Shown here: in pieces, positions 45,420 through 63,094 of the stretch
How positions within the stretch are numbered: position 1 is the stretch's first letter
Layout of the letters: the number at the start of each line of letters is the position of its first letter
From: Desulfovibrio sp.
GTDB lineage: Bacteria; Desulfobacterota; Desulfovibrionia; Desulfovibrionales; Desulfovibrionaceae
DNA: 64,000 nt
Direction of reading: 5' to 3'
Assembly: GCF_034006445.1 (NCBI RefSeq)
Contig: NZ_JAVESS010000002.1
Span: 419,623 to 483,622, forward strand
Notes under the pieces: model-generated
The model's database searches: none
Seen by the model: the letters and a program-made list of their open reading frames with translations, nothing else
Told to the model about the DNA's origin: nothing
Made by a program: the position numbers and the translations under genes

Positions 45420-45767
45420 ATGGAAGAAACCAAGCAACGGATCATACAGGAGTATGTGCCGGGCAGACAGATCACTCTGGCCCACCTTATCGCCAGCCCG
45501 CAAAAAGGCATCCACCTCAAGCTGGGTCTGGACGACGAATGCGCCACGGCCATCGGCATACTGACCATCACCCCCTGCGAGGGCGTCATTATAGCCGCTG
45601 ACATAGCCACCAAGGCCGCCAGCGTGGACATCGGCTTTCTGGATCGCTTTGGCGGCTCCCTGCTGATAACGGGCGACGTGGCCAGCGTTGAAGCGGCCCT
45701 GCGCGAGGTTCTGCACTATTTTGGCCATGTGTTGCACTATGACCTTACCGACATGACCAGGTCATGA
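45420..45767 (+). CDS. eutS: EutS-like permuted BMC-H shell protein
   Basis: The 115-residue protein begins with QEYVPGRQITLAHLIASP, the hallmark of the circularly permuted EutS/PduU family that forms hexamers with a small beta-barrel cap. The core DECATAIGILTITPCEGVIIAADIATKAA follows. ATG 45420 is chosen as GGAGG lies five bases upstream; GTG 45408 is in frame but overlaps that site. Confidence 0.9.
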   Translation: MEETKQRIIQEYVPGRQITLAHLIASPQKGIHLKLGLDDECATAIGILTITPCEGVIIAADIATKAASVDIGFLDRFGGSLLITGDVASVEAALREVLHYFGHVLHYDLTDMTRS

Positions 45768-45774
45768 GGCCATA

Positions 45775-48197: not shown

Positions 48198-48632
48198 AAG
48201 AACCTTCTTCCTGATGTATTGTTTGCAAATCCCAGCCTGCCTTGGCTGCACAAACCAGATATCTTAAGAATCCTGGAGCATTAAAGGAGTCCTGTCACAC
48301 GAGGGCACGGGGCGCAACACACCTGAAACCACCGACCAGAATGTCCGGCAGCTATAAAGGGTGGCAAATCAGACGGGCAACGCCTGGTCTGGACGTTGGC
48401 TCGCGGAGAGGCGCAATGCCATACGGCCCGCCTGCCTCTGCCAATCTGCGCAAGCCTTGCCGGACCTATGCAAAACGAATGAAAACGGTGCTTTGCCATG
48501 GGGCCTCAGGTAATGGGTCTCGTGGTTTGCAGAATTTTATGTGTTGGATATGAATTGCAGTCGTCGTGCCAAAAATCACCTGGCTGAAATTATTGAATAT
48601 AATTGAAATGCTGTCGCAAAAACATGAATATC

Positions 48633-48647
48633 GCGACATTCATGTCG
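48633..48647 (+). promoter_or_regulatory. Operator GCGACA-N4-TGTCG, site 1 of hydrolase gene
   Basis: GCGACATTCATGTCG contains a perfect CGACA-TTCA-TGTCG dyad. A further TGTCGC half-site is at 48612-48617. It lies about 185 bp ahead of the sigma-54 element at 48832. Confidence 0.6.
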
Positions 48648-48717
48648 TTGGTGACGACAAAAAAAACTTTGAAAAATACAAATAATATCAGAATATTATA
48701 ATGTAAGATATAAAATC

Positions 48718-48733
48718 GCGACATTATAGTCGC
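48718..48733 (+). promoter_or_regulatory. Operator GCGACA-N4-TGTCGC, site 2 of hydrolase gene
   Basis: GCGACATTATAGTCGC has one mismatch to the dyad and lies about 100 bp upstream of the sigma-54 element at 48832, a typical enhancer distance. Confidence 0.65.
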
Positions 48734-48831
48734 AAAGTGGTTGATTACCCAGGGGGAATTGCTTTTGCGGCTTTGTTCAAAAAACCACAGTACCCCAATT
48801 TTAACAAAAAAATTGATGGGTTGTGCAGATA

Positions 48832-48847
48832 TGGCATGCAAATTGAA
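48832..48847 (+). promoter_or_regulatory. Candidate sigma-54 promoter of hydrolase gene
   Basis: TGGCATGCAAATTGAA has a full -24 box and TTGA at -12 with correct spacing, 60 bp before the ATG at 48907. Confidence 0.6.
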
Positions 48848-48906
48848 CTGAGGGAGAAAAACACACTACAGCCCGTGTGCCCCGAACACGGCAAGGAGTT
48901 CTTTCT

Positions 48907-50793
48907 ATGGCCGCAAAAGCGAAACGCGCCGCCCTCATTGGCTATGACTGCCTTATCCCCAAAAGGCTTGAAGCCTTGCTTGCTCAGGGGGGGCTCGTCA
49001 ACTTCCGCAAGTTCATGAGCGAAGGCAGCTTTATCCCCGAGGGTTTCAATCTGCCCACGGTCACACCGCCTTCGTGGGCCACGATTTGCACTGGTGCGTG
49101 GCCGCGTACGCATGGTGTTGAAGATTATTATTACTACCATGAAGGCCGCAGCCTTGATTACAAGGAAACCACGCAGGCTTTCGGCTCTGAGATTCTCACC
49201 GCCCAAACCATTTGGGATGCCTGGGACACGGCTGGCAAGAAGTGCATTGTGGTCAACTACCCCATGTCCTGGCCATCCAAGATGAAGAACGGCGTCATGA
49301 TTATGGGTGAGGGCCTGAGCCCGGCTGAAACCCGCTGGCCCCTGCACGGCAACGAACACAGGGAGTTTCTGTGCTCTGAGGGTGTTATATCAACCGACTT
49401 CTATCCCATGGGCGCTCAGGGCAGCTTTGACGACGCCGAAGGCTGGGCCAACCTGCCGGACAGTGATGAACCGTTGGAAATGACCGTGGCCATGCATTTC
49501 AAGGAGTCTATGGAGCCCCTTGAAGACCAGACCTGGCACTGCCTTGTATGGCAGGACGGAGATGACGGTTATGACCGTATGGCCCTGTGCCCTGTGAAGG
49601 ATTTTTCCAAGGCATTCTTCACCCTCAAGCTGGGTGAATGGAGCGATCCCGTTCAGCATGACTTTACCATCAAGGCTGACGGCCGCACTGAAAAGGGCGT
49701 CTTTCGTTGCAAGCTGATGCAGCTTTCTGACGACGCTGAAGAATTCAAGCTGTACGTTTCGGGCATCGCTGGCCGTTGCGGCTTCATTGCCCCGCCCGAA
49801 GCCGCTGGCCTCATCGACTTTTCCAAGGACATCACCGCCAACGACATCGGTCTTGTGGCTTACATGCACGGCATTATCGACACCGATACCGTATGTGAAC
49901 TGGTGGATTACCACAGCTCATGGCTCTGGAACACCGTCGAATCCCTTATCAAAGCCAATGCCGACTGGGATCTGCTGTACATGCACTCCCACCCCATTGA
50001 CTGGTTTTACCATGGCTGGCTGAGCGACATCGACAGCAAGGACGACGCCGTGCGCACCCGTGCTGAAAAGATGGAACGCCACATTTATGAAGTGGAAGAC
50101 CGCCTGCTTGGCCGCCTTATGAACCTCCTGGGCGACGAAACAATCATGTGCGTCTGCTCCGACCACGGCGCAACGCCCATGGGCCCCATTCTCAACACGG
50201 CCCACGCCCTCAAGGAAGCGGGCCTCTGCTCCTACGAACCCACCAAGTCTGAAAACTACTGGGACATCTACGAAGAAACCGAAGGCGTCAACTACGTGAT
50301 GGACGTGAGCAAGTCCGTGGCAGTGCCGCAGCGCTACATGTTCGTCTACGTGAACCTCAAGGGCAAATACCCCGGCGGCATCGTGGAAGCTGAAGATTAC
50401 GAAAAGGTGCGCGACCAGATCATCGACGCCCTGCTGGACTACAAGCACCCTGACACCGGTGAACGCCCGGTTCTGCTGGCCGTTCGCAAGGAAGACGCCC
50501 ACGTCTTCGGCATGGGCGGCGCCCAGGCTGGCGATGTGGTATACGCACTCAAGCCCGAATACATGGCTGAGCATGGGTACGGCCTGCCCACTGGTGAATC
50601 CGGTTGCGGCAGCCTCAAGAACCTGCTCATGTTCCGCGGGCCCAACATCAAAAAGGGTTTCCGTTATACCCGGCCCCGCTGGCTGGCCGACATCGTGCCC
50701 ACACTCTGCTACATCACGGGCAACCCCATTCCCGCCGATGCCGAGGGCGCGCCCATTTACCAGATTATGGAAGACCCCAACCTGGTTTCCTAA
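48907..50793 (+). CDS. Alkaline-phosphatase-superfamily hydrolase (phosphodiesterase type)
   Basis: The 628-residue protein has the type I phosphodiesterase layout: GYDCLIPKRLEALL near residue 10, the nucleophile region TVTPPSWATICTGAWPRTHGV around residues 45-65, metal ligands in HSHPIDWFYHG and CVCSDHGATPMGP, and a C-terminal DIVPTLCYITGNPIPADAEG end. There is no signal peptide, so it acts in the cytoplasm. The substrate, a phosphodiester, phosphonate or sulfate, cannot be read from sequence. AAGGAG precedes ATG 48907. It is expected under sigma-54 control. Confidence 0.8.
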   Translation: MAAKAKRAALIGYDCLIPKRLEALLAQGGLVNFRKFMSEGSFIPEGFNLPTVTPPSWATICTGAWPRTHGVEDYYYYHEGRSLDYKETTQAFGSEILTAQTIWDAWDTAGKKCIVVNYPMSWPSKMKNGVMIMGEGLSPAETRWPLHGNEHREFLCSEGVISTDFYPMGAQGSFDDAEGWANLPDSDEPLEMTVAMHFKESMEPLEDQTWHCLVWQDGDDGYDRMALCPVKDFSKAFFTLKLGEWSDPVQHDFTIKADGRTEKGVFRCKLMQLSDDAEEFKLYVSGIAGRCGFIAPPEAAGLIDFSKDITANDIGLVAYMHGIIDTDTVCELVDYHSSWLWNTVESLIKANADWDLLYMHSHPIDWFYHGWLSDIDSKDDAVRTRAEKMERHIYEVEDRLLGRLMNLLGDETIMCVCSDHGATPMGPILNTAHALKEAGLCSYEPTKSENYWDIYEETEGVNYVMDVSKSVAVPQRYMFVYVNLKGKYPGGIVEAEDYEKVRDQIIDALLDYKHPDTGERPVLLAVRKEDAHVFGMGGAQAGDVVYALKPEYMAEHGYGLPTGESGCGSLKNLLMFRGPNIKKGFRYTRPRWLADIVPTLCYITGNPIPADAEGAPIYQIMEDPNLVS

Positions 50794-50904
50794 TCCACAG
50801 TAACAGTATGTAGCCTGCGCACGCGGCTTGCCGCCGGGCGTCCGCCCAGGCCGAAAAGGTTTGCCACTTCCACAACGACAATGCGCATAGCGCCGGAAAA
50901 ATCT

Positions 50905-50928
50905 GCGGCCTCCCCGTGGGGAGGCCGC
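50905..50928 (+). promoter_or_regulatory. Strong hairpin before the 182-aa gene
   Basis: GCGGCCTCCCC and GGGGAGGCCGC form a perfect 11-bp stem around GT. It ends ten bases before the AAGGA of the next gene and has no T-run, so it may be an mRNA processing or stabilising element between two cotranscribed genes. Confidence 0.5.
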
Positions 50929-50947
50929 GGAATACAAGGAAAACATC

Positions 50948-51496
50948 ATGGCTGAAAAAAAATCCATTCTCCTCCTGCTTCCCACGCTGCAACTGAGCGG
51001 CTCATCCGACACTCTGAACGCTCTGAAAAAAAAGGCCGCCATTCTGCCCAATGCCAATACCGCTGGCTTGGAAGATCTGGCCGCAGGCCTTGAAGGCAAG
51101 ACCGTGGACAGCGCCGCCCTTGCAGGCGCCGAAGACGTTCTGCTGGTGGTGCATGGCGATGAGTCCGCTCTGGCAGCCGCTCTTGAAGCCGCCGACCGCC
51201 GTACCCTTATCGTGGTTGCCGCCGCTGACGGTGTGGCTTTCAGCGGTCTGGCCATCAACGGTAAAGCCGGTTCCGTTGACCGCAAGGTCAGCGCTCAGGA
51301 CATTGCCGTGACCATCGCCACCATCACCGACCTGCCCGTCAGCGGAAACTGCACCGGCGCCACCATCTATCAGGTGATGAAGAACCCCAACCTGAAGCTC
51401 GACGAGATCAAAAAACTCAAAGAAGCGCTGATGCGTATGGAATCTGTCATCCAGCGCGACAACCGCGAACCCTGGGACAAGCACGACTGCGCCTAG
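50948..51496 (+). CDS. Protein resembling the C-terminus of the upstream hydrolase
   Basis: The 182-residue protein has no metal-binding or nucleophile motif. Its text AQDIAVTIATITDLPVSGNC followed by TGATIYQVMKNPNL aligns with ADIVPTLCYITGNPIPADAEG and APIYQIMEDPNL at the end of the hydrolase just upstream, then adds a charged helix (DEIKKLKEALMRMESVIQRD). It looks like a stand-alone, non-catalytic relative of that C-terminal region, perhaps a partner subunit. Good AAGGAAAACATC leader. Confidence 0.65.
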   Translation: MAEKKSILLLLPTLQLSGSSDTLNALKKKAAILPNANTAGLEDLAAGLEGKTVDSAALAGAEDVLLVVHGDESALAAALEAADRRTLIVVAAADGVAFSGLAINGKAGSVDRKVSAQDIAVTIATITDLPVSGNCTGATIYQVMKNPNLKLDEIKKLKEALMRMESVIQRDNREPWDKHDCA

Positions 51497-52432
51497 GCGC
51501 TGCGCCTGCGGGACGCATGCTCGAGTTTTGGCATACCACCAGTTTTTCTACGAAACATGCGTCAGTCCGGGCCTGACCCGGCACAAGGCGAAGCGCAACG
51601 CAAAGATGGCGAAAAACGCCTGCCGCGCTGCGTCTGGAGCAGGACGCCATGGGGAATGGCCGCTCTCAACGGCATGACACCGGCTTATAGAGTGTAACAT
51701 TCCATGGACGTTGTGCCCGCGCCCCACGGCGGCATCTGCTCCGGCAGCCGATACCCAGCCTCCTCCCATGCCGATGACGGACGCCCGGAACTGCCGCCCG
51801 GGCGTCCGCGCGTTTTTTCCAGCAACGCGGTAAAATCCGGTGGACTGTCCGTCTTCGTGAACGGCGTTCATACACGATACAGCTCCACTGGCATACTACT
51901 TGGCATGACAGTGGAGCTGTACTATGGCCTGACGCTTTGAGCATTTTCGCATTGAGAATATCCATTCTCGCGGAACCGTTGCCCGCTCCTGCGGGCTTGC
52001 CTGAACCGTTGGCGGGAACCGCCTTACGGGGCAGGACAGCATCGCTACGGATAGCGACAGCGGTTCTTCCACTTAGATGTCGTGTAACCAATTACTGTCT
52101 TCGGGCGTATTTTTGCGGCAGCCGTTAGGCGACGAAGAATCCTTACGGCTGACGACAGCATCGCTAGTGAACTTGCTCTGGGTTCAGGCCCCACGGCCCA
52201 TGTGATCCTGATCTTTTTCTTTTACGGATTTTCCGCGGTTTCGCGGTCAAAGAGAACGCAAGGGCGGCCTTTACCGAAGCGCGCCAGGAGCGGATCGCCT
52301 GAAGTCATCGGCGAAAAATCGTGCGCAGCCAAGCTGCACGTGCGCCGCAACGTGGCGTGAATTATGCTGGAAATCGCATTTTGGGGCAGAATGACAAATT
52401 GAAATATTAAATATTTCAGAAGGTAATCTGTT
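51497..52432. other. Long gene-free region with hairpins and repeat pieces
   Basis: About 940 bp lie between the 3' ends of two converging genes. A perfect 13-bp hairpin (51878-51890 with 51909-51921, TACAGCTCCACTG and its complement) could end transcription. From 51937 a worn palindromic-repeat member begins (GAGCATTTTCGCATTGAG), and related pieces run to 52436. Repeated GACAGCATCGCTA text is seen twice (52034 and 52155). No gene is convincing. Confidence 0.5.
51878..51921. terminator. Possible bidirectional terminator hairpin
   Basis: The two 13-base arms are exact complements around an 18-base loop, between converging genes. The lack of a T-run makes factor-independent termination uncertain. 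Confidence 0.4.
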
Positions 52433-53857
52433 CTAGGAAACTCCCTGCTTGCGGTCAGAGTTCATGCAAAGGCGCTTCATCTTTCTCTGAAATGTGCGCA
52501 GGTTCAGACCAAGGGACTCGGCGGCCTTACCCCTGTGCCAACGACATCGCTCAAGGCTCTGCCGGATCATCCTTTCTTCAAGCTGGTCCACGGCTTCATC
52601 AAGCGTGATGCCCTGCGGCGTCGCCAACAAAAGATCAGCCCGCCCGGCATCGCCAAGCGAGTTCAGCGCCTCTTCGCCAAAAGCGAGAAAGCGGTCAAGA
52701 AAGTTGTGCAGCTCGCGCACGTTGCCGGGCCAATCGTACTGCTCGATAATCAAGCGAACGTGCGGCGGCAGCACCATGTTACAGTCTTTTTTCTCAAGCC
52801 AGGCCTCCACCAGCAAGGGGATATCTCCATGGCGTTCCCGCAAGGGCGGCAGAGTCAGAGAAAGCACGTTGATGCGGTAGTAAAAGTCTGAGCGCATCTT
52901 TTTTTCACGCACCATGCGCGAGAGATCCTGGTTGGTGGCGGCGATCAGGCGAAAGGAAGATTCTTTGGGGGTATTGCCACCCACAGGCGTGTACATCTTG
53001 TTTTCCAGGGCGCGTAGCAGCTTGACCTGAAGGTGCAGGGGCAACTCACCTATTTCATCAAGAAAGAGCGTACCGCCGTTCGCCGCGCCGATGTAGCCTT
53101 CCTTGTTGGCGTGCGCCCCGGAAAAGGCTCCTTTGACATGCCCGAAAAATTCGCTTTCAAGCAGCTGCTCGGGGATGGCCCCGCAGTTGACCGGCACATA
53201 GCGGCCTTTACGCCCGCTGTATTCGTGGATGTTTTGCGCCACCAGATCCTTGCCACAGCCGGTTTCGCCATAAATGATGACGTTGGAATCCGTTTCAGCC
53301 GCCTTCAGAATCTGATTGTATATGCGGCGCATGGGTTCGCTTTTTCCCACAATGTTGCCGAGGCCGTAAAGGTTGATCACTGACGTGCGCAGGGCCTGGT
53401 TTTCTTCAAGCAGGGCAAGTTCCTGAAATTTCTGTTCGCTGACGTCCATTATCAGCCCTTCCAGATACCGGGGACAGCCGTTTTCGTCATACACGCCCTC
53501 GCCCTGGTCCCACAGCCACTTCACACGGCCAGAGGGAAGCAGCAGGCGGTACATAACCTGGTACGGCCTGTGGGCGACAATACTGTCGCGTATGGCGGCC
53601 CTGCTTGAATCCAGGTCGTCCGGGTGGGTCATGCGCTCGATGGTGTTGTGGTGTCCTCCCATCATTTCGTCCGGGGTAACGCCCAAAAACTCGTACGTGC
53701 CCCTGCTTATAAACTCCAGTTCATTTACCAGAAAACCAAGTGGTTCGTCGCTCCCGTTGAGAATACGGCAACGGTACGCCATCCCTGGGAGGTGATTGAG
53801 CAAGCGTCGATAACTTTTTTCAACGTCCAGAACAGGAAAAGCGGCGACTGGGAACAT
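52433..53857 (-). CDS. PAS-domain sigma-54-dependent activator
   Basis: The 474-residue regulator has an N-terminal PAS domain with PAC-like end (residues ~15-140, THPDDL, PRYLEGLIMDVSEQK), an AAA+ domain with Walker A GETGCGKD and DEIGELP, and a Fis-type helix-turn-helix at the C-terminus (GKAAESLGLNLRTFQRKMKRL). The sigma-54 contact loop reads GAFSGA instead of GAFTGA. ATG 53857 is preferred to the in-frame 53974, because the latter would place an operator dyad inside the gene. It is divergent from the OsmC-Lpd operon and is the obvious candidate to bind the GCGACA-N4-TGTCGC dyads. Confidence 0.85.
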   Translation of the reverse strand: MFPVAAFPVLDVEKSYRRLLNHLPGMAYRCRILNGSDEPLGFLVNELEFISRGTYEFLGVTPDEMMGGHHNTIERMTHPDDLDSSRAAIRDSIVAHRPYQVMYRLLLPSGRVKWLWDQGEGVYDENGCPRYLEGLIMDVSEQKFQELALLEENQALRTSVINLYGLGNIVGKSEPMRRIYNQILKAAETDSNVIIYGETGCGKDLVAQNIHEYSGRKGRYVPVNCGAIPEQLLESEFFGHVKGAFSGAHANKEGYIGAANGGTLFLDEIGELPLHLQVKLLRALENKMYTPVGGNTPKESSFRLIAATNQDLSRMVREKKMRSDFYYRINVLSLTLPPLRERHGDIPLLVEAWLEKKDCNMVLPPHVRLIIEQYDWPGNVRELHNFLDRFLAFGEEALNSLGDAGRADLLLATPQGITLDEAVDQLEERMIRQSLERCRWHRGKAAESLGLNLRTFQRKMKRLCMNSDRKQGVS

Positions 53858-53879
53858 ACCACACCACCCTTGCGTATTG

Positions 53880-53906
53880 TGTCGCAAGACGCGACATTTT
53901 TGTCGT
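53880..53906 (+). promoter_or_regulatory. Operator GCGACA-N4-TGTCG in the activator/OsmC divergent region
   Basis: GCGACATTTTTGTCGT at 53891-53906 is a perfect dyad at its core (CGACA-TTTT-TGTCG), and an extra TGTCGC lies at 53880-53885. It is 75 bp ahead of the sigma-54 promoter at 53981 and just upstream of the activator gene on the other strand, so it could serve both. Confidence 0.7.
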
Positions 53907-53980
53907 GATAGAAATGCATCCTGTACCCATGTGCCAAAAAACACAACACAAAAAGCGCTTTTTTCACGCACCACAATTTA

Positions 53981-53996
53981 TGGCACCAATACTGCA
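53981..53996 (+). promoter_or_regulatory. Sigma-54 promoter of the OsmC-Lpd-GcvH operon
   Basis: TGGCACCAATACTGCA has a full -24 box and CTGCA at -12 with correct spacing, 64 bp before the ATG at 54060. Confidence 0.7.
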
Positions 53997-54059
53997 ATAG
54001 GTAGGCCAATACCAATCAGAGCCGCCGGGCTCCCGCTTTTTCGAATTGGAGGATTATTT

Positions 54060-54497
54060 ATGTCTCATGAACTCAGCGTTTCTCTCACCCGTCAGGGCAG
54101 CAAGGTAGATCTGGACATGCAGTCCGGCGTCCTTGGCGTGCTCTCCATTGACGGCAGCGCCGCCTCCGCTGATGAAAAGGCGGGAACGGCCAAGAAGCTT
54201 CTGGCCGCCTCCGCGCTGTATTGCTACTGCGCGGCTCTGGACAAGGCTCTGGACACTCGTAACGCCAAGTACGAAATCATCGAAGGCAAGGCCACATTGC
54301 AGACTGGCACGGACGATATGGGCCGTGGACGCGTTACTGGCATTGCCCTTGATGTGACCGTCCGTATGGATGAGGAATACGAGTTTATTTTTGACCGCGT
54401 GGAAAAAATCATGCGTCAGGGGTGCCTTGTGACCTCCTCACTGCACCAGGCCTTTCCCGTCACCTACAATCTCAAGCTTGCCGAAGCCGACGACTAG
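54060..54497 (+). CDS. OsmC-like protein
   Basis: The 145-residue protein fits the OsmC/YhfA fold: beta-rich N-terminus, a central helix AASALYCYCAALDKALD that carries cysteines where OsmC has its first redox Cys, RVTGIALDVTVRM strands, and a second Cys in IMRQGCLVTSSLHQ. OsmC proteins reduce organic hydroperoxides through these two cysteines, often with reduced lipoyl groups as electron donor, which would make sense of the Lpd and GcvH genes next to it. A GGAGG leader precedes the ATG. Confidence 0.7.
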   Translation: MSHELSVSLTRQGSKVDLDMQSGVLGVLSIDGSAASADEKAGTAKKLLAASALYCYCAALDKALDTRNAKYEIIEGKATLQTGTDDMGRGRVTGIALDVTVRMDEEYEFIFDRVEKIMRQGCLVTSSLHQAFPVTYNLKLAEADD

Positions 54498-54506
54498 GTG
54501 ATGATC

Positions 54507-55931
54507 ATGTCCAACCAGAAAAAAAAGCTTACCATTATCGGCGGCGGGCCCGGCGGGTACACGGCAGCCTTTGAAGCCGCGCGCGCAGGCATGGACGTGA
54601 CCCTGGTGGAAAGCCGCGCCATGGGCGGCACCTGTCTCAATAACGGCTGCATCCCCACAAAGACCATCAAGGCCTCAGCCGAGGCCCTTGAAACCGCCCA
54701 GAACGCCGCCCGCTTCGGCCTCCGCATTGAAGGCGGCGTCAGCGTTGATCCGGCGGCCGTATTGGCCAGAAAAGAGCGCGTGTGCGACACCCTGCGCACG
54801 GGCCTTGAAAAAACCTGCGCAGCCCTGGGCGTCACCCTGGTGCGCGGCAGCGGACGGCTTCTGCATTCCGGCATGGTCCAGGCCGATTGCGCCGATGGAA
54901 AGCGGGAAATCGCCTCCGACTACGTCATTCTTGCCACTGGTTCACGGCCTGTCGATCTGCCCGGCCTGCGCGCCGACCACAAGCATATTCTCACCAGCGA
55001 TGACGCCCTCAAACTGGATTATGTGCCGTCTTCCCTTATCATTGTGGGCGGGGGCGTTATTGGCTGCGAACTGGCCTGCATCTATCAGGCTTTTGGCTCT
55101 ACGGTCACTGTGGTTGAAGGGCAGAACCGCCTTCTCCCCGTGCCCTCCATTGACGAAGAAGTCAGCACGCTTTTGCAGCGCGAAATGAAAAAGCGCCGCA
55201 TCACCTGCGAACTGGGGCAGACCCTCACTCAGATTCGTGTGGACGAAAACGGCGTGCATGGCGTTCTTGCCACGTCGCCCTTTGCTGGCCCTGACGCCAA
55301 ACCCCGGCCTGAAAAGCCGATCTCCGCCGAAATGGTGCTCGTCACCGTGGGGCGGACGCCCAATACCGAAGGCCTTGGCCTCAAGGAAGCTGGCGTTGCC
55401 GTGGACGAACGCGGCTGGATCAGGGCGGACGAGCACATGCGTACCTCGGTGCCCAATGTTTACGCCATTGGCGACGCACTTGGCCCTTCGCGCGTCATGC
55501 TGGCCCATGTGGCCTCAATGGAGGCCATGTGCGCGGTGAAGGGCTGCCTCAGCGGCGGCCAGGGCCCCATCATGGACTACCGTCACGTGCCCTCGGCCAT
55601 TTTTACCTCACCCGAAATCGGGTGCGTGGGCATGAGCGAGCGCCAGGCCCGTGACGCTGGATTTGTAGTAAAGACGTCCCTGCTCCACGTGCGTGAGCTT
55701 GGCAAGGCCCAGGCCATGGACGCCCTGCCGGGATTCTGCAAGGTGGTGGCCGATGCCGACAGCGGTGCACTGCTGGGCGTGCATATGGCCGGGGCCCACG
55801 CCACGGACCTTGTTGCTGAAGCCGTGCTTGCCCTGCATATGGGCGCTTCTGCCAGGGATGTGGCCGAGGCAATCCACGCGCACCCCACATTGGCTGAAGC
55901 TCTGGGTGAAGCAGTTCTGCGACTGGAGTAG
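54507..55931 (+). CDS. lpdA: Dihydrolipoamide dehydrogenase
   Basis: The 474-residue flavoprotein reoxidises or reduces lipoyl groups with NAD(H). It has the FAD motif IIGGGPGGYTAAFEAARAG, the redox disulfide GGTCLNNGCIPTK, the NAD motif IIVGGGVIGCELACIY, the second FAD site VYAIGDALG and the C-terminal His-Glu pair in HAHPTLAEALGEA. ATG 54507 follows AGGTGA; GTG 54498 is possible. No 2-oxoacid dehydrogenase genes are near, so its lipoyl partner is probably the GcvH-like protein downstream. Confidence 0.92.
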   Translation: MSNQKKKLTIIGGGPGGYTAAFEAARAGMDVTLVESRAMGGTCLNNGCIPTKTIKASAEALETAQNAARFGLRIEGGVSVDPAAVLARKERVCDTLRTGLEKTCAALGVTLVRGSGRLLHSGMVQADCADGKREIASDYVILATGSRPVDLPGLRADHKHILTSDDALKLDYVPSSLIIVGGGVIGCELACIYQAFGSTVTVVEGQNRLLPVPSIDEEVSTLLQREMKKRRITCELGQTLTQIRVDENGVHGVLATSPFAGPDAKPRPEKPISAEMVLVTVGRTPNTEGLGLKEAGVAVDERGWIRADEHMRTSVPNVYAIGDALGPSRVMLAHVASMEAMCAVKGCLSGGQGPIMDYRHVPSAIFTSPEIGCVGMSERQARDAGFVVKTSLLHVRELGKAQAMDALPGFCKVVADADSGALLGVHMAGAHATDLVAEAVLALHMGASARDVAEAIHAHPTLAEALGEAVLRLE

Positions 55932-55964
55932 CTCAGACAGGCCTGAACACGCACGGGATTTCCA

Positions 55965-56010
55965 GGCTCTGGTTCTGCCGAAACCCGTAATCCTCGGCGG
56001 AACCAGAGCC
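55965..56010 (+). promoter_or_regulatory. Intra-operon hairpin between lpdA and gcvH-like gene
   Basis: GGCTCTGGTTC and GAACCAGAGCC are perfect complements, extended inwards by TGCCG/CGGCG with one mismatch. It lacks a T-run and lies 100 bp before the GcvH start, so it may tune expression or stabilise the mRNA. Confidence 0.45.
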
Positions 56011-56110
56011 GATTCGCGGCCCGCGAACCAGCAGACACAGCTGCAAGCTTAAAAAATTTAGGCAGAAAACTTTTTTACGATGGGCACCATACCATTTTTT
56101 GGAGATCATC

Positions 56111-56512
56111 ATGAAAGACCTGAACGACATCATCCTGCCCGAGGATGTGGGTTTCACCGACGAGCACGTGTGGCTCCGCATTGAAGGAGAGGAAGCGCTG
56201 GTGGGCATCAGCGACTTTGCCCAGGACCAGCTGGGAGAAATTGCCTTTGTGGACCTGCCTGCGGAAGGCGCGCACTTTGGCGCTGGCGACGAATTTGGCA
56301 CAGTGGAATCCCTCAAGTCTGTCAACCCCTTGTACATGCCCGTGGCAGGCACAATACTGGCCGCCAACGAAGAGTTGGAAGCCATCCCGACCCTTGTAAA
56401 CGTTTCACCCTATGAAAAGGGCTGGATGCTGCGCATCAAACCTGACAGCACCGCCGATGCCGCCACCCTTGCCGACAGCGCCGCCTACAGGGCCCTGTTG
56501 CAGAAAAACTAG
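56111..56512 (+). CDS. gcvH: GcvH-like lipoyl protein
   Basis: The 133-residue protein has the H-protein layout (FTDEHVWLRIEGEEALVGISDFAQDQLGEI) and the lipoyl lysine Lys69 in ESLKSVN. In glycine cleavage the H protein shuttles an aminomethyl group, but no gcvT or gcvP gene is present here, so it may instead serve as a lipoyl electron carrier between Lpd and OsmC, or feed reducing power to another partner. TTTTGGAGATC precedes the ATG. Confidence 0.9.
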   Translation: MKDLNDIILPEDVGFTDEHVWLRIEGEEALVGISDFAQDQLGEIAFVDLPAEGAHFGAGDEFGTVESLKSVNPLYMPVAGTILAANEELEAIPTLVNVSPYEKGWMLRIKPDSTADAATLADSAAYRALLQKN

Positions 56513-56536
56513 ATTCCTGGTTCAGGAGCCGCTTTA

Positions 56537-57580
56537 ATGAAAAACCTTTCCCGCGCAGCCACGTCATGCCAGAACAAAGAGTTGGCATTCGTACGCAAGG
56601 GGCTTTTTCTCGCGACTCTTACAGGAGTGATTTTCTGCTGGGACGGCATCGTCCTCAAAAAAGGACTCCTGACGGAGCCTTTCAACTCGCCCGCCCTGTG
56701 GCTGCTGGCTCCCCTGTTCGCCGCCGGATTTCACGATCTTTCCGCTGCCGTCATGTCAGCTGTCATCAACTTCAGGCAGGGCAAAATTCGGGAAATAGAG
56801 CGCACCCTGCTCAGTAAACCGGGCAAACTGTGCATTCTTGGGGCATGTTTTGGCGCTCCTCTGGGCATGGGGGGCTATCTTATGTCCCTCTCTCTGGCAG
56901 GGCCTGCGTACACGTTGCCCATTACCACTCTGTATCCGGCCATGGCCGCCGTGCTGGCCCGCATATTCCTTAAGGAACACATTTCCCCTAGAGGCGCATG
57001 TGGTCTTGTGCTCTGCGTCATTGGCGCGTTTGCCATCGGCTGGACCCCGCCGCCAGGCGGCGGTTCTGGGCCGGCTTTTTACGCGGGCATCGCCTTTGCC
57101 TTTCTGGCCGCTTTCGGTTGGGCGGCTGAAGGCGTCTGCGTTACTTCTAGCATGGACTTCATCGAGCCTGGTGTCGCACTCAATGTGTACCAGATTATTT
57201 CAAGCCTATTGTATTTCACAATTATCATACCAATTGCCTACGCCTCGCTTGTGCTCCACGGGGTCGGCATAGAGGCCCCGGCTGAACTGGCCGGGGCCTT
57301 CCTCAGCAGCCCGGCCCTCATATCCTTCGCACTGGCCGGATTCATCGGCTGCCTCTCCTACAGGTGCTGGTATGCGGGCATGAACATGACCGGCGTCAGC
57401 CGGGCCATGGCCCTCAATGTGACCTATGCCTTGTGGGGGGTGCTTTTCAGCGTATTTTTCGCCGAAGTGACCATTACCGAAAACCTTGTCCTGGGCGCGC
57501 TGGGCATATTTGCCGGAATCATTCTGGTTGTTGGCAATCCGCGTGAAATGATCAACCTGCGCGCGGCGGCGGAAGCATGA
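56537..57580 (+). CDS. EamA/DMT-superfamily transporter (copy 2)
   Basis: The 347-residue inner-membrane protein has about ten transmembrane segments and is homologous to the transporter at 27930, sharing FLAAFGWAAEG and the Pro-Ala-x(3)-L-R stretch. It lies 24 bp after the GcvH gene and overlaps the small downstream gene by four bases (ATGA). Substrate is unknown; a metabolite of the same pathway as the neighbouring genes is likely. Confidence 0.78.
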   Translation: MKNLSRAATSCQNKELAFVRKGLFLATLTGVIFCWDGIVLKKGLLTEPFNSPALWLLAPLFAAGFHDLSAAVMSAVINFRQGKIREIERTLLSKPGKLCILGACFGAPLGMGGYLMSLSLAGPAYTLPITTLYPAMAAVLARIFLKEHISPRGACGLVLCVIGAFAIGWTPPPGGGSGPAFYAGIAFAFLAAFGWAAEGVCVTSSMDFIEPGVALNVYQIISSLLYFTIIIPIAYASLVLHGVGIEAPAELAGAFLSSPALISFALAGFIGCLSYRCWYAGMNMTGVSRAMALNVTYALWGVLFSVFFAEVTITENLVLGALGIFAGIILVVGNPREMINLRAAAEA

Positions 57581-57852
57581 AAACCAGAATAAAGCCGCCC
57601 ATGCGGCTTGCCATAGGAAAGCTCATGCTTGATGGCAAAGCCCGCTCCGCTGAGGATGTGCGCAATGAGCTTACCCCCCAATATGACGGTGAAAAGCAGC
57701 TCAATCTGCCCAACCTTGAAAACCACCTACAGGCGCTCCGGGCCGTGGGCATTCTTGCTGTAGCCGAGCGAGATGACACGCAAAATGCAAATCCTGATAC
57801 GGCATATATCATCTGTGTCGATGGCGAAAGGCGCGTAAAAAAATATTTATAG
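57577..57852 (+). CDS. Small winged-helix-like protein paired with EamA transporter (copy 2)
   Basis: The 91-residue protein (IKPPMRLAIGKLMLDGKARSAEDV... NHLQALRAVGILAVAERDD) is a winged-helix-like relative of the protein at 27657. It overlaps the transporter stop by four bases, so the two are translationally coupled. Function is unknown. Confidence 0.6.
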   Translation: MKTRIKPPMRLAIGKLMLDGKARSAEDVRNELTPQYDGEKQLNLPNLENHLQALRAVGILAVAERDDTQNANPDTAYIICVDGERRVKKYL

Positions 57853-57867
57853 TTATTACTGACTGAC

Positions 57868-57896
57868 ATAAACCCCGTGCAAAAAACGGGGTTTAT
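57868..57896 (+). terminator. Terminator of the OsmC-Lpd-GcvH operon
   Basis: ATAAACCCCGT and ACGGGGTTTAT are exact complements around GCAAAAA, 16 bases after the last stop. The T-run is short, so efficiency is uncertain. Confidence 0.65.
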
Positions 57897-57992
57897 CTAT
57901 CCCCTCACCCTCCCTTTTCCAGCTCGCCGCAGCTTTGCATTCTTCGACCAGCACGGGCTTTCATACTTGGCTTTTGCCACACCAAACCCACC

Positions 57993-58132
57993 TAGAGCAT
58001 TTTGCTTTTGAAACACTCCTTGTTTCAACGCATCACTCTGGCGAAAAACATGGTTTTCGCCAGAATCCACGCCACTTCATGGCGGCTGCCGTCTTCGCCT
58101 CAGCAGAGCAATTTCAAAGTGAAATTGCTCTA
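57993..58132 (-). repeat. Palindromic intergenic repeat, 140-bp type, copy F
   Basis: Read on the minus strand this is nearly the same sequence as 1929-2068: TAGAGCAATTTCACTTTG start, GGCGAAAACCATGTTTTTCGCC hairpin (one base changed) and GCAAAATGCTCTA end, with exactly the same length of 140 bp. High similarity across 56 kb shows a mobile or conserved family. Confidence 0.85.
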
Positions 58133-58212
58133 AAAACTACGTTTGCACAAAAATGTTTGTGATTGATTGTTCAATCATAAACCACCGCAGTTCAGGGGAC
58201 GCAGAGCATAAT

Positions 58213-58228
58213 GCGACAATATTGTCGC
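58213..58228 (+). promoter_or_regulatory. Operator GCGACA-N4-TGTCGC upstream of ABC operon
   Basis: GCGACAATATTGTCGC is a perfect palindrome and the best example of this motif. Two more TGTCGC half-sites follow at 58345-58350 and 58367-58372, nearer the sigma-54 element at 58468. Confidence 0.7.
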
Positions 58229-58467
58229 AAGATTCAATCCCAACGCGCTTCCCGCTTGCCCCCACAGGGGATGTTTCCCCTTTTTTCTATGGTTTTCTGC
58301 CCTCAAATCCTGCAATCCTCCCTACTTTGTACAATATGTCACATTTGTCGCAATCTGCCACACAGGTGTCGCAAAATACGGCCAAAGGCGATGTTACACG
58401 GCCTGTATACCCCCAAAGAGCAAGCAAATCCGCCCAACAATCCTGACCTCCTTTTGCTTGTGAAATT

Positions 58468-58483
58468 TGGTATATAAAATGCA
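58468..58483 (+). promoter_or_regulatory. Candidate sigma-54 promoter of the ABC operon
   Basis: TGGTATATAAAATGCA keeps the GG and TGC pairs at the right spacing but is weaker in the -24 box. It is about 140 bp upstream of the first gene. Confidence 0.45.
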
Positions 58484-58624: not shown

Positions 58625-59389
58625 GTGCAGCAAAGTGCTGACTGTACCGGTTTCGACGCGAAAATTGCCGTCCGGGACCTTACCAAAACGTATGGGGATC
58701 TTGTTGTTCTGGACAAGATCAACTTCAGCATCAAGCGAGGAGAGCTGGTCAGCATTGTTGGCCCCACCGGATGCGGCAAAACGACGTTTCTTAACTGCAT
58801 GTCCAAGCTCACTGAGACCACTTCCGGCAATATTTATATTGACGGTGAGGTGGCCAACCCGCGCAAACACAATCTGGCTTTCGTCTTTCAGGAACCCACG
58901 GCGCTTCCCTGGCTGACCGTGTCTGAAAACGTGGGCTACGGCATGCGCATTAAAAAAATGCCCAAGCCGGAAATGGAAAAACGCCTGGACTTTATTCTTG
59001 ACCTTGTGGGCCTTAAAGATACCGCCAATCTTTACCCCAACCAGGTTTCGGCCAGCATGATGCAACGCATCGCCGTGGCCCGCGCCTTTGCCGTCAATCC
59101 CGACCTGCTGCTGATGGACGAACCCTACGGTCAGCTCGACGTCAAGCTGCGCTTCTACCTTGAAGACGAACTGGTGAAGCTGTGGCAGACCCTGAAGAGC
59201 ACCGTGCTTTTCGTCACTCACAATATTGAGGAAGCCGTGTACGTGGCTGACCGTATTCTCGTTCTAAGCCCCAAGCCCACCAAGGTTCGCGCGGAGGTAG
59301 TTGTTGACCTGCCGCGCCCGAGGGATTTCAGGGACCCGAAATTCATCGAACTTCGCCGGCAGGTCACTGACCTCATCCGCTGGTGGTAG
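58625..59389 (+). CDS. ABC transporter ATP-binding protein 1 (NitT/TauT type), atypical signature
   Basis: The 254-residue ATPase powers import of an organic anion or sulfonate-like solute. Walker A is GPTGCGKTT and Walker B LLLMDEPYGQLD. The ABC signature, normally LSGGQ or LSGGM, reads VSASMMQR, so this subunit may contribute a weak or non-canonical ATP site and pair with the second ATPase at 61143. GTG 58625 is chosen since AAGGAG lies seven bases ahead; TTG 58595 is in frame. Confidence 0.88.
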   Translation: MQQSADCTGFDAKIAVRDLTKTYGDLVVLDKINFSIKRGELVSIVGPTGCGKTTFLNCMSKLTETTSGNIYIDGEVANPRKHNLAFVFQEPTALPWLTVSENVGYGMRIKKMPKPEMEKRLDFILDLVGLKDTANLYPNQVSASMMQRIAVARAFAVNPDLLLMDEPYGQLDVKLRFYLEDELVKLWQTLKSTVLFVTHNIEEAVYVADRILVLSPKPTKVRAEVVVDLPRPRDFRDPKFIELRRQVTDLIRWW

Positions 59390-59413
59390 GCAAAGCAAGA
59401 AAGGATTTTGTTC

Positions 59414-60226
59414 ATGGAAACCAACGATAACGCCGCGTTTCGCAAGCCTTTTCGGCTTCGCATTCTTCCAGTGCTCAGCGTCTGCTGCTTTTTGATCCTG
59501 TGGCAGATCTGCATCGCGCCGCCAGATGTTGAAGACTGGCGCATTCCCAGCACCCTGCTGACATCGCCGCTGGACGTGCTGCGCCTCATGATTGACAAGC
59601 TGACCAACGCCGCCCCTGACGGCGCAGTGCTTTTGCAGCACGCCTGGGTCAGCATGCAGGAAGCTTTTTTGGGCTATGTGCTTGCGCTGCTCGTCGGCCT
59701 GCCCCTGGGCCTGGCCATGGGCTGGTTCACCACCGTGCGCGGCCTTGTACGCCCCATTTTTGAAATCATCCGCCCCATCCCGCCCGTGGCGTGGATTCCG
59801 CTGACCATTTTCTGGTTCGGCATCGGTCTGCCCGGCAAGGTTTTCATCATCTGGCTTTCGGGCATTGTTCCCTGCGTCATCAATACCTATACCGGCGTAA
59901 AGATGACCAATCCCGTGCATATCCAGATGGCCAGAACCTACGGTGCCTCCGACTGGCAGATATTTACCACCATCTGCGTGCCCTCTGCCCTGCCCATGGT
60001 GTTCGGCGCGCTGCAAATCGCGCTGGCCTACTGCTGGGTTACCCTTGTGGCCGCCGAACTGCTGGCTTCCGACCAGGGCCTTGGCTACCTCATCACCATC
60101 GGCCGTATGCTTGGCCGCACCGACCTTGTTGTTGTGGGCATGGTGAGCGTGGGCATTGCCGGCGCCATCATCGGCTTCATCATCGACAAAATTGAATCCC
60201 GGCTGCTGGCCGGTATCAGGAGATAG
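59414..60226 (+). CDS. ABC transporter permease 1 (NitT/TauT type)
   Basis: The 270-residue membrane protein has about six transmembrane segments and the cytoplasmic coupling loop ARTYGASDWQIFTTICVPSALPMVFGALQ typical of SsuC/TauC permeases. RPIPPVAWIPLTIFWFGIG is the second family motif. It pairs with the permease at 60229 to form the channel. Confidence 0.92.
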   Translation: METNDNAAFRKPFRLRILPVLSVCCFLILWQICIAPPDVEDWRIPSTLLTSPLDVLRLMIDKLTNAAPDGAVLLQHAWVSMQEAFLGYVLALLVGLPLGLAMGWFTTVRGLVRPIFEIIRPIPPVAWIPLTIFWFGIGLPGKVFIIWLSGIVPCVINTYTGVKMTNPVHIQMARTYGASDWQIFTTICVPSALPMVFGALQIALAYCWVTLVAAELLASDQGLGYLITIGRMLGRTDLVVVGMVSVGIAGAIIGFIIDKIESRLLAGIRR

Positions 60227-60228
60227 GC

Positions 60229-61125
60229 ATGCAAGAGACATCTGCGCCTACCGCCGTGCAGGCCAACAACAAATCCGCAGACACGCAGAGTGTCTGTAAC
60301 GAAACCATACAGTCCAATGGCAAACGTGAATTTTCGCTGATCCGCACCCTCAAGAGCGAATATTTTCTGCACGTGATATCCATAATCGCCTTTTTCGGGC
60401 TTTGGCAGTGGGCTGCTACGTCCCACGTATTCGGGCACACCAGCGCCCTGGCTACCCCCTTTCAGGTGCTGGAAAGCCTGCGTGACCTCAGCACGCAAAA
60501 ACTTTCAGGTCTGACCCTGGTGGAACATGTGTTCATCAGCACCCAGCGCGTCATCATCGGCTTTTTTCTTGCCGTGCTTCTGGGTGTTCCCCTGGGCCTG
60601 TTCATGGCTTTCAACCAGACGTTCAAGGCCATCGTCAAGCCGCTCTTCGACATGTTCAAGCCCATGCCGCCCCTGGCGTGGATATCCGTAGCCATCCTGT
60701 GGTTCGGCATCGGCGAAGCGCCCAAGATCTTCATCATTGTCATCGGCTCGTTCGTGCCTGTGGTGCTGAACTCATACAGCTGCATGCAGCTTATCGAACC
60801 CGAACTGTTTGACGTCGTGCGCATGATCGGCGGCAAACGCTGGGACGAAATACGCCTTGTGTGCATTCCCGGCGCTCTGCCCGCCATCACCGCCGGTCTT
60901 CAGATCGCCATGTCCAGCGCCTGGACGTGCGTGGTCGCGGCCGAGCTGGTCAACTCCCGCTCGGGGCTTGGCTATATCATTATCCAGGGTATGAAACTGT
61001 CCGACCCCGGCATGATTATCGGCGGCATGCTCATCATCACCGTGGTGTCGCTGATCTTCACCCAGGGCATGACTTTCCTTACGAACAAGCTTTGCCCGTG
61101 GCAGCGTGAAATCGAGAATCTTTAG
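60229..61125 (+). CDS. ABC transporter permease 2 (NitT/TauT type)
   Basis: The 298-residue permease is a paralogue of permease 1, with PMPPLAWISVAILWFGIGEAPK and the coupling loop RMIGGKRWDEIRLVCIPGALPAITAGLQ. It has a polar N-terminal extension of about 45 residues before the first membrane segment. Start is two bases after the previous stop. A heterodimeric membrane part is implied. Confidence 0.92.
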   Translation: MQETSAPTAVQANNKSADTQSVCNETIQSNGKREFSLIRTLKSEYFLHVISIIAFFGLWQWAATSHVFGHTSALATPFQVLESLRDLSTQKLSGLTLVEHVFISTQRVIIGFFLAVLLGVPLGLFMAFNQTFKAIVKPLFDMFKPMPPLAWISVAILWFGIGEAPKIFIIVIGSFVPVVLNSYSCMQLIEPELFDVVRMIGGKRWDEIRLVCIPGALPAITAGLQIAMSSAWTCVVAAELVNSRSGLGYIIIQGMKLSDPGMIIGGMLIITVVSLIFTQGMTFLTNKLCPWQREIENL

Positions 61126-61142
61126 AATTCCTGGAGAAGAAC

Positions 61143-61910
61143 ATGAAAAACACGCCGCCCAAAATCGTCTGTGACAAAGTTTGCAAAACATTTGTGCAAA
61201 AGCGGACCCAGCTTGTCCACGTGCTCAAGGATATTTCCCTTGAGGTGCACGAGCAGGAATTTCTGGTCATCCTTGGCCCCGGCCAGTGCGGCAAAACCAC
61301 GCTGCTGCGGACCATAGCCGGGCTGGAAACGCCCACCTCCGGCACCATAACCATGAACGGCAAAACGCTGAATGGGCCGACCCCTGATATCGGCCTCGTG
61401 TTCCAGAGCTACATGCTCTTCCCCTGGAAGACCGTTCGTCAGAACGTGGAAATAGGCCTGGAAGTACGTGGCCTGGATAAAGACGAAGTACGCAAGGTTT
61501 CTGGCCACTACCTGGGCATGGTGGGCTTGCACGGCTTTGAAAACTACTATCCCCACCAGCTTTCGGGGGGCATGAAGCAGCGTGTGGGCATTGCCCGCGC
61601 CTACTCGCTCAACCCCCAGGTCATGCTGCTGGATGAACCTTTTGGTCAGCTTGACGCACAGACGCGCTTTTTTATGGAGCAGGAAACCGAACGCATCTGG
61701 CAGATGGACAAGCGCACCATGATCTTTGTTACCAATAACATTGACGAAGCGCTCTTTCTTGCTGACCGGATAGTGACAATGGAAGACAAGCTGCCCGGCC
61801 ACGTCAAATCGTCGTACGACGTGCCTTTGGCGCGCCCCCGCGACACGATGGACCCGGAATTTCTGGAGCTGCGAGCGCGCATCACGGAAGAACAGAAGCT
61901 GACCCTTTGA
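61143..61910 (+). CDS. ABC transporter ATP-binding protein 2 (NitT/TauT type)
   Basis: The 255-residue ATPase has Walker A GPGQCGKTTLLR, a normal signature LSGGMKQR and Walker B VMLLDEPFGQLD. With the atypical ATPase at 58625 it likely forms an asymmetric heterodimer. GGAGAAGAAC precedes the ATG. Confidence 0.92.
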   Translation: MKNTPPKIVCDKVCKTFVQKRTQLVHVLKDISLEVHEQEFLVILGPGQCGKTTLLRTIAGLETPTSGTITMNGKTLNGPTPDIGLVFQSYMLFPWKTVRQNVEIGLEVRGLDKDEVRKVSGHYLGMVGLHGFENYYPHQLSGGMKQRVGIARAYSLNPQVMLLDEPFGQLDAQTRFFMEQETERIWQMDKRTMIFVTNNIDEALFLADRIVTMEDKLPGHVKSSYDVPLARPRDTMDPEFLELRARITEEQKLTL

Positions 61911-61921
61911 TTCATTTTTTG

Positions 61922-61952
61922 GCCGGATCCCGCAAGAGATTCGGCTTTTTTT
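61922..61952 (+). terminator. Weak terminator-like hairpin after ATPase 2
   Basis: GCCGGATC and GATTCGGC pair with one G-T around CCGCAAGA and are followed by seven T. It may reduce read-through before the binding-protein gene or, since that gene is usually expressed most, act as a processing site. Confidence 0.55.
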
Positions 61953-62011
61953 AGAAAAACGGAATGCTGTTCTGTAACCCATACACAACGTGGAACAACA
62001 AGGAGTTTGCG

Positions 62012-63094
62012 ATGAAGAAGTGCCTTTTGGCTGCCGTATTCTGCTGCTTTGCGATGCTGTTCGGCGCTGGGGCTGCCCAGGCCGCCGACAAACCAGTGAA
62101 AATTTCTACCTGCTGGATGGACGAATCTCCGGGCTTCAACATTTGGTATGCCAAAAAAATGGGTTGGGACAAAGAAGAAGGTCTGGATATTAACATGCTG
62201 CTGTTCAGCAGCGGTCCTGCGCAAATGGAAGCCCTTCCTGCCAAGGAATGGGTGCTTGGTTCCACCGGTGTTGGAGGCCAGCTGATTGGCGGCATCCGCT
62301 ACAAGATTTACGCCGTGGCCCCCATCATCAGCGAAGGTGAAGTGCATGTGCTTTACTTGCGCCCAGACAGCCCGGCGGCCAAGGTCAAGGGCTACAACCC
62401 CAAGTACCCCAATGTGTATGGCAGCCCCGAGACCGTCAAGGGCATGAAGATCCTGTACACCTCGCAGACCACCGTGCACTACATGATCGGCAAATGGCTG
62501 AAGATCCTCGGCCTGACCGAAAATGACGTCACCCTGGTGAATATGGAACAGCCCTCTGCCGTGCCCGCCTTTGAAAAAGGCATTGGCGACGCCGTGTGCC
62601 TGTGGGCTCCCTTCACCTTCGTGGCCGACTCCCGTGACTGGGTGCGCGCCGGTTCCGCCACCGACATGGACTCCATCACGGTTTCCTCCCTCGTGGGCGA
62701 CAAAAAGTGGTGCGATGAAAACCCCGAACTGGTGGCCAAGTTCCTGCGCGTGTACATGCGTGCTTCCGACATGCTGCGCAAAGAGGGTACAAGCCCCCGC
62801 ATCATCAAGGAATACCGCCAGTACATGAATGAGTTCGCCGGTATCCGCATGACCGACGAAGAAGCCAAAAAGGATATCGAGATCCACCCCCGCTGGACCT
62901 ATGAAGAAACGCTTGCCCTGCTGGACAGCTCCAAGGGAGAGTCCCAGGCTGACAAGTGGCAGAACGAGGTGGCCGAATTCTTTGGAAGCATCAAGCGTTT
63001 CTCGCCTGCCGAAATCCAGAAGTTCAAGGACGCCAAGATCAATACCGACAAGTTCCTTAAGCTGGTGCAGCCCACTGCCGCTCCTGCGAAATAG
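62012..63094 (+). CDS. ABC transporter substrate-binding protein (TauA/SsuA-like)
   Basis: The 360-residue protein begins with a signal peptide (MKKCLLAAVFCCFAMLFGAGAAQAAD) and then KPVKISTCWMDESPGFNIWYAKKMGW, the normal opening of NMT1/TauA-type periplasmic binding proteins. It should capture the solute and deliver it to the permeases. Trp and acidic residues near the start could suit a cationic or zwitterionic ligand, but the substrate cannot be fixed. AAGGAG lies six bases before the ATG. Confidence 0.88.
   Translation: MKKCLLAAVFCCFAMLFGAGAAQAADKPVKISTCWMDESPGFNIWYAKKMGWDKEEGLDINMLLFSSGPAQMEALPAKEWVLGSTGVGGQLIGGIRYKIYAVAPIISEGEVHVLYLRPDSPAAKVKGYNPKYPNVYGSPETVKGMKILYTSQTTVHYMIGKWLKILGLTENDVTLVNMEQPSAVPAFEKGIGDAVCLWAPFTFVADSRDWVRAGSATDMDSITVSSLVGDKKWCDENPELVAKFLRVYMRASDMLRKEGTSPRIIKEYRQYMNEFAGIRMTDEEAKKDIEIHPRWTYEETLALLDSSKGESQADKWQNEVAEFFGSIKRFSPAEIQKFKDAKINTDKFLKLVQPTAAPAK

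Follow-up and report, generated by a model that had tools for sequence, protein, structure and literature searches.

A predicted sigma-54 regulon of Desulfovibrio with a dyad operator at three operons and inside the gene of its activator

Why does a cluster of Desulfovibrio genes that match no obvious pathway carry the same inverted repeat before several of its operons, with a sigma-54-type activator encoded between them? The cluster lies in a stretch of 64,000 nucleotides from Desulfovibrio sp. (assembly GCF_034006445.1, contig NZ_JAVESS010000002.1, positions 419,623 to 483,622 of the forward strand), hereafter called the window. An earlier note, made from the sequence alone, had described a GCGACA-N4-TGTCGC dyad upstream of a hydrolase gene, an OsmC-Lpd-GcvH operon and an ATP-binding cassette (ABC) operon and proposed one regulated system of about ten genes. 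The analysis described here indicates that one activator, acting with sigma-54, probably switches on three dyad-tagged operons, which likely serve the import and breakdown of a small choline-like compound. The regulon is a computational prediction with good support, and the biochemical role assigned to it is a reasoned guess. The proposal of a single system was upheld, its size being slightly larger than stated, with about 12 genes plus the activator.

The four dyads quoted in the earlier note were all located. Two of them, each with one mismatch, are situated 5′ of the hydrolase gene: GCGACATTCATGTCGT (48633..48648), which is kept in relatives, and GCGACATTATAGTCGC (48718..48733), 85 bp 3′ of the former, a distance comparable to that of the pairs found 85-100 bp apart in relatives. 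The third, GCGACATTTTTGTCGT (53891..53906, one mismatch), lies in the region between the activator and OsmC genes and has a degenerate partner with one good half-site 21 bp upstream. The fourth, GCGACAATATTGTCGC (58213..58228, no mismatches), is a perfect palindrome 5′ of the ABC operon. Two additional sites were absent from the previous list, namely GCCACACAGGTGTCGC (58357..58372, one mismatch), also 5′ of the ABC operon, and a perfect dyad at 53574..53589 inside the activator coding sequence. The latter is the only one of the six that is not intergenic, the other five being spread over three promoter regions. With up to two mismatches allowed, the window contains 12 sites compared to 3.9 ± 1.8 expected, and none of 100 shuffled sequences reached 12. 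In the whole genome, 17 sites with at most one mismatch were counted versus 13 for a reversed-pattern control, which characterizes the dyad as a rare motif without global enrichment. Six of these 17 sites fall within the 9.9 kb of the cluster, where 0.05 were expected (Poisson P ~2e-11), and the remaining 11 are all located inside open reading frames (ORFs). The dyad was therefore not frequent at random sites of the genome, and a genome-wide regulon was rejected. The half-site TTGCGACA was also rejected as a lone marker, with 118 occurrences in the genome versus 106 in the controls.

To judge conservation, 61 related genomes were searched. The activator was found in 11 of them (at least 51% identity, N-terminal region included) and the hydrolase likewise in 11 (at least 63% identity), with both present in 10; G011, a 63%-complete assembly, has the activator only and G035 the hydrolase only. 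In ten activator neighbourhoods the genes for the hydrolase, its partner protein, the activator, OsmC, Lpd, GcvH and EamA occur together with some gaps: the hydrolase gene is not on the contig in L047 and L051, no Lpd match was obtained in L046 and no Lpd or GcvH match in L050, some of the neighbourhoods being contig ends. The exact motif GCGACA-N4-TGTCGY is present anywhere in the genome in 10 of the 11 activator genomes, yet also in 25 of the 50 others, and therefore only position-aware tests were used.

For these tests, a scan of named genomes provided 49 hydrolase loci from Desulfovibrio, Mailhella, Bilophila, Desulfomicrobium, Halodesulfovibrio, Pseudodesulfovibrio and Deltaproteobacteria, to which the window, L043 and L050 were added. 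After exclusion of three loci with too little upstream sequence and four without a gene start, 45 of these 52 loci were scored for RCGACA-N4-TGTCGY with at most one mismatch in the 600 bp (or the remainder of the contig, if at least 300 bp) upstream of the hydrolase transcription unit. A dyad was present in 34 of 34 loci of activator-positive genomes and in none of nine loci of activator-negative genomes, a count for which genome completeness is known for a minority only and in which some activator matches are split or contain a stop. Two further loci, L107 and L131, were set aside as unclassified. Thus, the dyad does stand upstream of orthologous genes and co-occurs with orthologues of the activator, with one exception (G036, see below), and the check that could have refuted the earlier note spoke for its reading. 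Where the activator is encoded at the same locus (25 loci), a total of 43 dyads was counted compared to 0.1 expected. The best single contrast is provided by Candidatus Desulfovibrio kirbyi (G035/L105), which belongs to the same genus and is 99% complete: it keeps BCCT transporter, hydrolase, partner, EamA and porin genes and has neither the activator nor the dyads. When neighbouring dyads less than 130 bp apart were tallied over 40 whole loci, coding matches included, nine pairs were 21 bp, 12 pairs 63-70 bp and 15 pairs 85-100 bp apart.

A -24/-12 element 3′ of the dyads, as previously reported for all three operons, was found in each case: ATGGCATGCAAATTGAA (48831..48847) for the hydrolase, ATGGCACCAATACTGCA (53980..53996) for the OsmC operon and TTGGTATATAAAATGCA (58467..58483) for the ABC operon, all on the plus strand. 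The hydrolase element is non-canonical, having GA instead of GC at -12. Using a simple sigma-54 consensus score (maximum 27.5) evaluated against shuffled sequences at p ≤ 0.05, an element was detected 53-182 bp before the start in 26 of 30 hydrolase promoters, L107 and L131 included (median score 22.75), compared to none of seven in activator-less genomes, a set that leaves out L112 and L116 (median score 17.5). The OsmC promoters reached this threshold in 21 of 22 cases, and the one ABC operon promoter did so as well. In L103, where the script chose another match, the orthologous promoter element was identified by eye. GC is absent from the -12 position in all 30 hydrolase promoters (21 GA, 8 GG, 1 GT); TGC is present there in all 22 OsmC promoters.

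The activator gene (52433..53857, minus strand) encodes a protein with PAS_3, sigma-54 AAA+ and Fis helix-turn-helix domains according to Pfam, which confirmed the earlier assignment of a PAS/sigma-54 activator, i.e., an enhancer-binding protein (EBP), between the target operons. Its GAFTGA-type loop reads GAFSGA, which is listed among the active loop variants in the main text of a study on Desulfovibrio vulgaris (Kazakov et al., 2015; PMC4641369). From the alignment of orthologues, ATG 53857 is the most likely translation start, in place of the GTG with which the 513-amino-acid ORF begins, and dyad 53891 would therefore be intergenic.

The intragenic dyad at 53574 overlaps the codons for the residues RDSIVA in the PAS-coding region. 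For a codon test, 28 activator sequences were available, 15 with the D..V residues, 12 without them and one (L049) without an anchor. Among the 15 orthologues keeping D..V, Asp is encoded by GAC in all 15 (8.0 expected given the codon usage of the individual genes; P 8e-5) and the Val by GTC in 14 (4.3 expected; P 3e-7), P values that overstate independence as the orthologues are related. The residues in between vary, and the dyad is kept with at most one mismatch in 13 of the 15 sequences; in the 12 sequences lacking D..V no dyad is present at this position (4-6 mismatches). Because of this codon bias despite varying intervening residues, the DNA of the site looks conserved beyond what the protein alone would require, and we infer that the intragenic dyad may serve as a distal enhancer.

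What might the regulated genes do? The hydrolase (48907..50793, plus strand) is a type I phosphodiesterase-like member of the AlkP superfamily, as judged from Pfam (PF01663, 4e-25) and alignment. It is followed by a gene for a 182-amino-acid partner protein (50948..51496, plus strand), which matches no family and has a conserved C-terminus (...WDKHDCA). The C-terminal part of the partner resembles the C-terminus of the hydrolase itself (tblastn cross-matches in L050, G035 and G039), as though the partner had arisen from a truncated AlkP domain. In G006, a more distantly related hydrolase (identity 42-43%) is accompanied by B12-binding, MutL and OsmC genes and by a transporter read as Tct-type.

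The ABC operon (58625..63094, plus strand) encodes an ATPase, two permeases, a second ATPase and an SsuA-like binding protein; family matches identified the first ATPase, the first permease and the binding protein, and the second permease and second ATPase were named from their translations. In most relatives, a BCCT transporter gene is located divergent from or before the hydrolase gene (the BCCT of L048 being just under the family cut-off). In L104 (Desulfovibrio sp. DV), an ABC operon of the window type with 60-83% identity is found beside the hydrolase at the place of BCCT, and the dyad ACGACAGAAATGTCGT precedes the hydrolase. Because of this arrangement the ABC operon was counted as a presumable member of the system. 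ABC genes are also located directly before the hydrolase in the termite-gut loci L109, L113, L115, L118 and L130.

The third operon, on the plus strand, starts with the gene for an OsmC-family protein (54060..54497), which is just under the Pfam cut-off and was assigned by PDB matches and a model showing the OsmC fold with a predicted local distance difference test score (pLDDT) of 91. It is followed by genes for a dihydrolipoyl dehydrogenase (Lpd, 54498..55931; TIGR01350, 454 bits, cut-off 409), a GcvH-family lipoyl carrier (56111..56512; TIGR00527 over the cut-off, lipoyl Lys in 18 of 18 sequences), an EamA-family transporter (56537..57580; Pfam) and a 91-amino-acid protein (57577..57852), which has no family match and appears winged-helix-like by reading. 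In L104, the place of Lpd and the lipoyl-GcvH of other loci is taken by DsrH-, DsrE- and DsrF-like proteins behind an OsmC-like protein, the DsrH and OsmC matches being under the Pfam cut-off. Since a part in sulfur oxidation is reported for DsrE-like as well as GcvH-like lipoyl proteins (PMC6067878), our best guess is that OsmC, Lpd and lipoyl-GcvH may form a thiol or sulfur relay. A second pair of Lpd-like and GcvH-like genes is present in the same genome (L145, 99-1875) beside an iron-sulfur protein gene, these names being given by reading. The 'OsmC family' gene Ddes_0153 is listed in a transcriptome study as lowered by NO (PMC5701242); its identity with the present OsmC gene was not established and it was not used here.

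An indication of the substrate comes from the association with choline trimethylamine (TMA)-lyase. The window itself contains a choline TMA-lyase microcompartment region (27600-46209) with CutC (31723-34179; 1661 bits, cut-off 1050) and CutD (34287-35210), both over their family cut-offs, and EutP- and PduS/RnfC-like genes. The pair of EamA and small-protein genes has a counterpart flanking this cut operon, and the cluster EamA proteins of L044, L047 and L048 are 53-56% identical to the cut-flanking EamA of the window. In 6 of 16 loci bearing gcvH, cutC/cutD-type genes directly follow gcvH, their CutC being 83-100% identical to that of L046, which is itself over the cut-off. Of 7 genomes with CutC, 5 have the activator (P 0.0014; within the genus, P 0.009). 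The position of choline TMA-lyase-type genes directly behind gcvH in the 6 loci makes it likely that the system accompanies the use of choline. The interchangeable zwitterion transporters, the phosphodiesterase-type hydrolase and the choline TMA-lyase together point to a choline-like ester. The earlier statement that no named pathway matches therefore holds in part: choline TMA-lyase can be named as a genomic companion, and substrate and relay chemistry are inferred.

In the favoured explanation, the activator would sense a ligand through its PAS domain, bind the dyads of the three promoters and activate the genes together with sigma-54. Its oligomers might occupy the one site in its own gene as well as dyad pairs, with a spacing of often 21 bp or of 85-100 bp, and contact the promoters by looping. 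A zwitterionic quaternary-ammonium ester, e.g., phosphocholine, would enter through the transporter (ABC in the window, BCCT in most relatives) and could then be split by the AlkP hydrolase and its small partner. Choline would pass to CutC where CutC is present, EamA might move substrate or product, and OsmC, Lpd and lipoyl-GcvH could operate alongside by relaying thiols or sulfur in an NADH-linked manner. Of these steps, the substrate and the chemistry of the relay are the weakest and are proposed tentatively. A more far-reaching reading, which we consider rather speculative, is that the activator gene acts as its own enhancer, with the selected intragenic dyad and the intergenic site about 300 bp away as two stations, and serves a new catabolic unit in which an undescribed lipoyl thiol/sulfur relay, made up of the OsmC-fold protein, Lpd and a lipoyl H-protein dedicated to it, operates beside a choline-ester (or organosulfur-betaine) hydrolase and feeds choline TMA-lyase.

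Several observations weigh against the favoured explanation. With respect to regulation, the nine activator-negative loci mostly represent one termite-gut group and are not independent, and dyads are present in the fragmentary genomes of L107 and L131, in which the activator was not found. Strictly 5′ of the hydrolase gene, the dyad occurs in 29 of the 34 activator-positive loci; in the remaining five, the dyads are located before a BCCT gene that itself precedes the hydrolase gene. For the ABC operon, the evidence of co-regulation consists of its arrangement in the window and in L104, and in ten neighbourhoods of relatives it was not found beside the activator, and beside the hydrolase it was found in L104 only. 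With respect to function, the hydrolase model was of low confidence and gave no structural match at E ≤ 0.001, the weak matches above this value being snake venom phosphodiesterase and ENPP1, and a sequence search of PDB with the hydrolase, likewise aimed at its substrate, gave no match. CutC over the cut-off is missing from six of the 11 activator genomes. No dyad with at most one mismatch was found at the cut operon of the window or in the separate cut regions of G020, G025 and G013 (L147-L149). A site at 29188 was considered for the cut operon of the window and rejected, as it has two mismatches and no sigma-54 element was seen beside it by eye.

Among the alternatives, the one that survives best assumes the same regulon but an organosulfur substrate. 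A sulfur-containing zwitterion of the sulfonate or taurine type would be imported, and OsmC with Lpd and lipoyl-GcvH, or with the DsrEFH-like proteins in L104, would pass sulfur to central sulfur metabolism together with the partner protein, whose C-terminal Cys is kept in 47 of 48 sequences. The set of OsmC-, DsrH-, DsrE- and DsrF-like genes before the ABC genes in L104, the role of GcvH-like lipoyl proteins in sulfur oxidation and the binding proteins, SsuA-like in the window and TauA-like (under the cut-off) in L115, are in agreement with this possibility. However, the BCCT transporters and the association with CutC point to quaternary amines, the phosphodiesterase-type hydrolase would have no clear role, and neither an Hdr-like nor a sulfonate-lyase gene was noticed among the cluster genes, no search having been aimed at Hdr. 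We regard an organosulfur substrate as possible but doubtful.

It is unlikely that the OsmC-Lpd-GcvH genes provide a lipoyl-dependent defence against organic peroxides of the Ohr type and share the activator by chance. The OsmC fold, the redox cysteines C55 and C122, which are present in 26 of 26 sequences, the adjoining genes for Lpd and the lipoyl carrier and the existence of Ohr structures with dihydrolipoamide (6ebg, 6ebd) would suit such a function. On the other hand, the residue corresponding to the catalytic Glu of Ohr enzymes (Arg19/Glu51 in PMC5962072) is Lys (K45) in 26 of 26 sequences, aligned to a Glu of E. coli OsmC. This replacement weakens a peroxidase role, and the constant pairing with hydrolase and transporter is another argument against it.

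Even less probable is that the dyads are bound by another regulator, e.g., a repressor, and that the neighbouring activator acts elsewhere. Dyad binding by the activator is itself a prediction, and G036, which is 92% complete, keeps OsmC and Lpd genes (L078, 5982-8198) with dyads at 8020, 8041 and 8133, while an activator orthologue was not found, which also counts against the favoured explanation. But dyad and activator are jointly absent in nine of nine loci, including the same-genus D. kirbyi, and the spacing of the dyads and their position upstream of -24 suit an enhancer-binding protein. A part in glycine cleavage for the Lpd-GcvH pair, although both proteins are over their family cut-offs, is very improbable and was rejected, since no GcvT or GcvP family was detected among the cluster proteins of the window that were scanned and another of the four GcvH-family matches in the genome has gcvT- and gcvPA-like neighbours (ORFs identified by reading).

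With the favoured explanation of a choline-related regulon, a poorly annotated gene cluster of Desulfovibrio, Mailhella, Bilophila and other relatives would become one testable regulon with a defined operator, which offers a handle for finding the inducer. Many of the records with the cluster are from gut or rumen samples, and the regulon appears linked to the choline lyase that forms trimethylamine. Two features depart from the usual layout of sigma-54 promoters in a specific, testable way, namely the dyad inside the activator gene and the -12 element, which is conserved without GC. Elsewhere in the window, the region 2796-22948 contains formate transporter, hydrogenase/complex-I-like and molybdopterin oxidoreductase genes and encodes another sigma-54 activator (20705-22948); it resembles a formate hydrogenlyase cluster.

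In the literature searched, with supplements and most subscription papers outside its scope, no account of this system was found. Comparison with known systems shows partial similarities. The GcvH-like lipoyl protein outside of glycine cleavage resembles the LbpA proteins of the sHdr pathway, for which Lpd is described as linked in some archaea (PMC6067878); a lipoate ligase gene is present in L044 (TIGR00545 over the cut-off). In contrast to sHdr-LbpA, the present GcvH passes the ordinary GcvH cut-off. Among the scanned cluster proteins of the window no Hdr-like gene was detected, the relatives having been read as ORF lists and tblastn matches without an Hdr search. With the lipoyl-dependent Ohr/OsmC peroxidases the system shares the fold and both cysteines, but differs by the invariant Lys. 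With the cut microcompartment cluster, whose CutC and CutD lie at 31.7-35.2 kb of the window, it shares a related pair of EamA and small-protein genes, but the cut operons checked have no dyad with at most one mismatch. The closest parallel is found in the sigma-54 regulons of D. vulgaris, for which the main text of the study by Kazakov et al. (2015; PMC4641369) describes mostly one to four operons under each EBP. This main text contains none of the terms OsmC, glycine cleavage, phosphodiesterase, choline, GCGACA and TGTCGC, the supplements being outside the scope of the comparison. As in D. vulgaris, a one-component EBP is encoded beside its targets and dyads are located 5′ of -24/-12 promoters; unlike there, one site lies inside the EBP coding sequence and the -12 of the hydrolase promoter is never GC. 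The system described here thus appears to belong to the sigma-54/EBP regulons, as an unusual member distinguished by its intragenic site and its conserved non-GC -12 element.

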